Of a DNA stretch of 64,000 nt, positions 2,590-4,419 are shown one piece after another (positions within the stretch are counted from its first letter, which is position 1; each line of letters opens with the position of its first letter). Under the pieces are notes generated by a model, which was given only the letters and a program-made list of their open reading frames with translations, made no database searches and had not been told where the DNA came from. Position numbers and translations under genes: made by a program. The DNA comes from Bacillota bacterium. GTDB lineage: Bacteria > Bacillota > Negativicutes > DSM-13327. Location of the stretch: NCBI GenBank assembly GCA_017889585.1, contig JAGFZX010000016.1, positions 1 through 64,000 of the forward strand, written 5' to 3'.

Positions 2590-2784
2590 CCTTCCCTTAA
2601 CTATGAATAATCAGCTTGAAAACCGAATGGAATGTTTTTTCAATACAATGAGGAAGCCTCATGATTTTTTCAAAGCCTCCAAATTATTTATTAGTAGACA
2701 ACTATATCAATTCAACTTTATAAATACAAATACCTCCTAAATCCCAACTATTGCCACGGACCATTTTTAATGTCCCTTTATGTA

Positions 2785-2820
2785 AATAGGGTTCTGAGGA
2801 AAAAACCTCAGAACCCTATT
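2785..2820 (-). terminator. Perfect 15-bp inverted repeat with 6-nt loop, directly 3' of the tRNA-Sec-like gene
   Basis: AATAGGGTTCTGAGG-aaaaaa-CCTCAGAACCCTATT; no strong T-run after the stem. Confidence 0.6.
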
Positions 2821-2828
2821 ATTTCATA

Positions 2829-2924
2829 TGGCAGAAACGTGTAGAAATCGAATCCACTCATCGACAGTTAAGCCGACACAAACAGTTTTGAATACCGCAG
2901 AAGCTACCAGCCCCATCCACTCCC
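2829..2924 (-). tRNA. selC: tRNA-Sec-like gene, anticodon UCA at 2889-2891
   Basis: Minus strand GGGAGTGG-AT-GGGGC-TGGTA-GCTTC-..GCGGT-ATTCAAA-ACTGT..TGTCGGC-TTAACT-GTCGATG..GTGGA-TTCGATT-TCTAC-ACGTTTCT-G-CCA: D stem, anticodon stem, 7-bp variable arm, T stem with TTCGATT loop, encoded CCA. Many G.U pairs; one acceptor mismatch (G8/A). Confidence 0.7.
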
Positions 2925-2933
2925 ATTGTTGTT

Positions 2934-2942
2934 AGTATAACA
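2934..2942 (-). promoter_or_regulatory. Extended -10 (TGTTATACT) upstream of the tRNA-Sec-like gene
   Basis: Minus strand TGTTATACT-AACAACAAT-GGGAGTGG; spacing to the tRNA 5' end fits a -10 box. Confidence 0.4.
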
Positions 2943-3003
2943 GTCTTTTATTTGTAATAGGAATTTTAATAAAATGAAAAATGGATTAATAAGGGATTAC
3001 ATC

Positions 3004-3043
3004 AATACTAGTGATATCAAATTTCATTTATATCACTAGTATT
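3004..3043. repeat. 14-bp perfect inverted repeat AATACTAGTGATAT-12nt-ATATCACTAGTATT
   Basis: Exact arms 3004-3017 and 3030-3043 in the serS/tRNA intergenic region. Confidence 0.9.
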
Positions 3044-3096
3044 GCAAATAGCTAACGATGTATCAATCTTCTGGTTAAATAACTTCGATACTCAAC

Positions 3097-3147: not shown

Positions 3148-4419
3148 TTATTTTCCGATCACTGCAACACCCATATATGGCCTCAATACTTCAGGTATAA
3201 TGACCGAGCCATCAGGCTGTTGGAAGTTTTCTAAAATAGCTGCCACAGTCCGGCCTATAGCGAGGCCCGATCCATTTAATGTATGGACAAATTCAGGTTT
3301 CGCCTTTGGTTCCCGCCGGAACTTGATGTCAGCACGACGGGCCTGAAAATCTTCAAAGTTGGAACAGGAGGAAATTTCTCGATATGTATTAAAGCTGGGT
3401 AACCACACTTCAAGATCATAAGTCTTAGCTGATGAGAAACCTACATCCCCACTGCACAGTGTCATTCTGCGATAAGGAAGTCCTAATAGTTCCAGTATAC
3501 GCTCAGCATTTTTCGTCAATTTTTCCAGTTCATTATATGATTCTTCTGGTAAAGAGAATTTAACCATTTCGACTTTGTTAAACTGATGCTGGCGGATAAG
3601 ACCACGTGTATCACGACCGGCTGATCCTGCTTCAGCACGGAAACAAGCGCTGTATGCTGTATAATACAATGGCAAATCCTTTGCATCGAGGATCTCTTCA
3701 CGATGATAATTGGTGATGGGCACTTCAGCTGTTGGGATGAGATAATAATCCAACCCCTCTAGTTTAAACATATCATCAGCAAACTTAGGCAACTGTCCTG
3801 TACCCATCATACTGTCTTTATTGGCAATAAATGGCGGAAAAAATTCAGTATAACCGTGTTCACGAGTATGAATATCAAGCATAAAATTAATCAGCGATCG
3901 CTCTAACCGAGCTCCAAGACCGCGATAAAAGGTAAATCTTGCTCCTGTAACCTTACTTCCGCGTTCAAAATCAAGGATATTCAGTTTTTCGGCAATTTCC
4001 CAGTGAGCTAGTGGCTGACCTTCAAAAACAGGCAACGTGCCCCAAGTATGCATCTCAACATTACTATTTTCATCCTGACCTACAGGTACAGACTGATGAA
4101 GCATATTGGGAATGTTAACGATAATTTGCTGTAACGCGATTTCAACGTCTCTGACTTTGGCATCAATCTCAGAAATCTGATCACCGACTAGACGCATTTC
4201 TGCTACTAATCCATCAGCGTTTTCTTTGGCTCTTTTCAATTGACTGATTTCCTGGGATACAGTATTACGCTTATTTTTAAGCACCTCTACTTGGCTGAGT
4301 AGTACCCGACGCTCTTTTTCTAGTGTCAAGAATTCATTCAGGCTGAGATTATTCCCACGATTGATCAATGCCTGCTGAACGATTTCCATATTATCTCGGA
4401 CAAATTTAATGTCAAGCAT
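3148..4419 (-). CDS. serS: Seryl-tRNA synthetase
   Basis: 423 aa; class II motifs [62 protein letters not shown]. Confidence 0.97.

Follow-up and report, generated by a model that had tools for sequence, protein, structure and literature searches.

A diverged second copy of the selenocysteine tRNA gene downstream of serS in a draft genome of the Negativicutes

The locus between serS and pepT

The DNA analysed here, called the window below, covers the first 64,000 nucleotides of contig C56, which belongs to a draft genome in 134 contigs (83.7% complete, 5.4% contaminated). On its minus strand lies a complete tRNASec-like gene of 96 nt, GGGAGTGGATGGGGCTGGTAGCTTCTGCGGTATTCAAAACTGTTTGTGTCGGCTTAACTGTCGATGAGTGGATTCGATTTCTACACGTTTCTGCCA, which was read directly from position 2924 to position 2829 and ends in an encoded CCA. 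Its upstream neighbour on the same strand is serS, encoding seryl-tRNA synthetase (3148-4419; TIGR00414, 572.7 bits), the best matches of which include Propionispira, which places the genome in the Negativicutes. Downstream, and also on the minus strand, lies pepT, encoding peptidase T (1309-2589; TIGR01882 and NF009920, both over cut-off).

Direct reading confirmed the cloverleaf described in an earlier note on this DNA, with a UCA anticodon and U33 in a 7-nt loop (ATTCAAA), a long variable arm of 7 bp, the T loop TTCGATT, and G73 followed by CCA (3' end GCCA). The gene shares its length and all of these features with bacterial tRNASec (selC; RF01852). As also described there, pairs 1, 3, 5 and 6 of the acceptor stem are G.U and pair 8 is a mismatch, in this case G.A. 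In the D stem, where tRNASec has 6 bp, 5 bp are formed and a T-A pair may be added to them after a one-base deletion.

The Rfam tRNA-Sec model RF01852 aligned with the gene from end to end at 37.3 bits, below its curated gathering score of 47; with an E value of 1e-4 for 8 kb the match is not due to chance, despite the sub-gathering score. ARAGORN called no tRNA in the window and so missed the gene. A covariance model built from six sequences, the window gene among them (R1), gave it 92.4 bits. The predicted fold had a free energy of -24.3 kcal/mol and was no better than shuffled sequences (z -0.22), compared with -48.6 and a z of -3.26 for an intact relative. As judged from its sequence the gene is of the tRNASec type by descent, as the earlier note had proposed, and this identity is beyond doubt because the genome has another tRNASec gene, described below, with which this one is homologous. 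Its charging with serine and conversion to selenocysteine are putative.

Two flanking elements reported earlier were also found. An extended -10 element (TGT TATACT; TGTTATACT) was read directly at 2942-2934, 9 nt upstream of G1, and aligns to the TATAAT of the second selC gene. No -35 element was recognisable, and a promoter scan did not list the -10 element either. Downstream, at 2785-2820, lies a terminator-like hairpin of 15 perfect base pairs, which has a weak minus-strand T tail; its homologue is the terminator hairpin of the second selC gene. The sequences of the two hairpins differ by three paired double changes, yet the one in the window is perfect; it may have been kept for another reason, such as the separation of serS from pepT transcription.

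A link between the two genes, as the position next to serS would imply, is not supported: in a scan of 11 related serS loci, no tRNA was present downstream of any of them. Gene order in relatives is conserved upstream of serS and not downstream. With the downstream genes unconserved and the tRNA absent there in relatives, the serS neighbourhood is most likely incidental. Two further inverted repeats were observed in this part of the window. A palindrome, ATACTAGTGATAT...ATATCACTAGTAT, lies at 3004-3045 between serS and the tRNA copy, and a long near-perfect hairpin, AGCAAAAACTCCTGC...GCAGGAGTTTTTGCT, lies at 61-120 downstream of an open reading frame at 119-1234. The latter draws sub-threshold matches to Rfam microRNAs (57-128), most probably by chance because the hairpin is long.

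The paralogous selC gene and the selenocysteine machinery of the genome

A better tRNASec gene was found elsewhere in the genome (G000:C122:7100-7196); it scored 64.9 bits, against 37.3 for the window gene, and was typed by ARAGORN as tRNA-SeC(tca). The two loci align over about 170 bases, from just upstream of the -10 element to where the hairpin ends, the tRNA included (window 2783-2951, minus strand, and G000:C122:7074-7242; 83% identity, blastn E 2e-43). Beyond these limits there was no significant alignment between them. The variable arms differ by a single base. This identifies the window gene, at the level of sequence, as a paralogue of the genome's own selC.

The C122 gene is itself not clearly perfect. 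Its acceptor pair 4 is an A.A mismatch, which may be real or a sequencing error; across 36 intact tRNASec of the Negativicutes, pairs 1-7 of the acceptor stem contain no other mismatch. Since the window copy retains, on the 3' side of the acceptor stem, the usual U that is replaced by A in C122, it did not descend from the present-day C122 gene.

The earlier note had suggested a search for sel genes and a second selC, and in addition to the C122 gene this search yielded selA and selB, adjacent on contig C47, and selD on contig C65, which has one in-frame UGA in the motif SGGUAAKIGP. With these genes and the better selC present, the genome very probably uses selenocysteine decoding. The note would have doubted the assignment if a sub-threshold score had been found together with an absence of sel genes, and would have regarded this copy as a relic if a clearly better tRNASec existed elsewhere; the score is indeed below threshold and a better copy exists, and the sel genes are present. 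No second SelA and no second SelB were found in the genome, which speaks against a dedicated second selenocysteine system.

Changes in the window copy

Changes were scored on the window branch by taking as reference the state shared by the C122 gene and its counterpart in the nearest relative (G011), and were compared with a set of 36 distinct intact tRNASec of the class Negativicutes. The window copy carries 12 branch-specific changes, comprising seven C-to-T, three G-to-A, one C-to-A and one deletion. Six of them fall at columns invariant in all 36 intact tRNASec, compared with 8 of 206 nearest-neighbour differences among the 36 that fall at columns invariant in the rest (Fisher p 1.6e-5, a rough figure of about 2e-5, as the 206 differences are not independent). 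The states A53-U61, A32, U72 and the one-base deletion in the D arm are unique to the window copy in this comparison; A53-U61, A32 and the deletion, together with the low score and the G.U pairs, also set it apart from bacterial tRNASec as described by RF01852. Its four acceptor G.U pairs compare with 0-2 in the 36 other intact tRNASec, and the AT-rich acceptor of another class genome (G307) is made of Watson-Crick pairs (GGAAACG/CGTTTCC), not G.U. The invariant-site changes and the excess of acceptor G.U pairs point to relaxed constraint on the window copy. The mismatch at pair 8 had also been read as a sign of degeneration, a reading we do not retain: G.A occupies this pair in 34 of the 36 other intact Negativicutes tRNASec, and is therefore the norm of the class rather than damage.

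Other features of the copy speak against simple decay. No base pair is broken by the changes except in the reshaped D arm, where the deletion and a G-to-A change jointly permit the T-A closing pair. The closing pair of the T stem has undergone a double change from G-C to A-U. The anticodon, U33, GG, TTCGATT, G73 and CCA have all been kept. The terminator hairpin, too, is perfect in spite of the three paired double changes that separate it from its counterpart in C122. Broken pairs and lost key residues, the usual marks of a pseudogene, were thus not found apart from the D arm. Under nine random GC-to-AT changes, unbroken pairing has a probability of 0.044, or 0.007 if the key loop residues must also be spared; the former rises to 0.30 once the observed surplus of C-to-T relative to G-to-A is built into the calculation. 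Part of the retained pairing could result from C-to-T change that is linked to transcription and affects the RNA-like strand, in which case the window gene is or was expressed.

Origin and fate of the window copy

The earlier note had left the choice between a degenerating and a naturally divergent tRNA, and degeneration is the better supported of the two. Both marks of a decaying duplicate were found, namely an intact paralogue in the same genome, albeit with one acceptor mismatch, and changes at otherwise invariant sites. We consider it likely that the window gene is a recently duplicated selC in decay, perhaps still transcribed. A unit of about 170 bp, comprising the core promoter, the tRNASec and the terminator, would have been duplicated from, or together with, the C122 copy, and would now sit between serS and pepT. 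Because selenocysteine decoding can be served by the C122 copy together with SelA, SelB and a SelD that itself contains selenocysteine, the window copy would be under relaxed constraint and, the genome being AT-rich, would decay mainly through C-to-T and G-to-A changes. We infer that the window copy has ceased to do the main tRNASec work; it may or may not still be transcribed and charged. An orthologue was sought in a congener (G001), and no tRNASec was found in that assembly, denser scan included; the assembly has selA, selB and a UGA-containing selD and probably lacks the gene, which leaves the test empty. An exact 36-base stretch had no match in viral contigs.

A rather unlikely alternative, and the one that survives best, is a second functional tRNASec. 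Transcripts of both copies would then be substrates of SerRS for charging and of SelA for conversion, and the window copy would have drifted towards G.U with paired changes, adding to the tRNASec pool or acting conditionally. The pairing preserved almost throughout, the T-stem double change, the retention of every decoding and CCA feature and of the -10 element and hairpin, and the A.A mismatch of the C122 copy all fit this reading, as do functional second copies with compensatory changes, which have been proposed in 21 genomes, eight of them bacterial (PMC5330540). It accounts poorly for the half of the changes that lie at class-invariant sites, the score below gathering, the weak predicted fold and the unrecognisable -35 element, and with a single SelA and a single SelB such a tRNA would have no dedicated partner. 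In a variant that we regard as improbable, two complementary weakened genes are kept, the A.A-mismatch copy and a functional G.U-rich copy of low or conditional efficiency that tunes UGA recoding.

We hold it very improbable that the window copy is the scar of an integrative element with selC as its attachment site. The selC gene probably does serve as such a site in the Negativicutes, as judged by 3'-half tRNASec fragments that share the strand of the intact gene and lie 6.6, 40 and 45 kb downstream of it (G031, G313 and G323) and by a tyrosine recombinase that adjoins the tRNASec of G323. These scars, however, consist of the 3' half only, from the anticodon loop onward. The window copy is full length, has a promoter of its own and is not on the contig that carries the main selC, and the neighbouring genes that were examined showed no recombinase. 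Least probable of all is a binning artefact, in which the window or the C122 copy would come from another organism and the window copy might be the genome's only selC: the 134 contigs and the 5.4% contamination allow for it, but the tetranucleotide composition of C122 correlates with that of the window at 0.97-0.98 (0.30-0.89 for sampled stretches of other families), and the two copies have a near-identical variable arm and flanks in common.

Second tRNASec copies are already in the literature, and the window gene is a duplicated gene of modest interest rather than a new kind of RNA. In the Secmarker study (PMC5330540), the extra copies in the 21 genomes mentioned above were distinguished from disrupted copies, which were treated as likely false. 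Additional copies reported there, for example in Desulfosporosinus, Desulfitobacterium and Halanaerobium, are like the window gene in being second, non-identical G73 copies, in which some of the changes against the top copy are paired; the window gene differs by its many changes at invariant sites and its low predicted stability. The human tRNASec2 pseudogene is likewise a dispersed, diverged duplicate alongside an intact gene, but has lost G73 and acceptor pairs, whereas the window gene retains G73, CCA, promoter and terminator (PMC5330540). A tRNASec-like architecture is also found in selC* tRNACys and allo-tRNAs (PMC7609411); selC* tRNACys has U73, in contrast to the G73 of the window gene, for which no second SelB was found. 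The locus would thus present a selC duplicate partway through diverging, with promoter and terminator still recognisable. Its practical value lies in annotation and in the choice of the copy for testing: a standard tRNA finder can miss diverged selC copies such as this one, and the G.A at acceptor pair 8 in Negativicutes should not be taken for decay.

A survey of 381 genomes of the class found tRNASec in at least 41 at the threshold used, a lower bound resulting from strict filters. Second copies elsewhere in the class were 3'-half fragments, intact duplicates, or complete genes that have a second selB and selA next to them in betaine-reductase clusters, as read in G042; among the genomes listed, the window copy is the only full-length, G.U-loaded, dispersed one. 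A second, divergent tRNASec of 94 nt with its own selB was observed in five genomes (G042, G307, G312, G313 and G314). In G042 it lies in a betaine-reductase island carrying its own selenocysteine machinery (C1:1044000-1060000), together with a betaine BCCT transporter, selB, a thioredoxin reductase, component C of glycine/sarcosine/betaine reductase, selA and a component B subunit; the second selA of G313 is a remnant. Finally, G320, a genome 96% complete, has two intact tRNASec and no selA, selB or selD over cut-off, so that these are orphan tRNASec genes, whereas its congeners have selA and selB.
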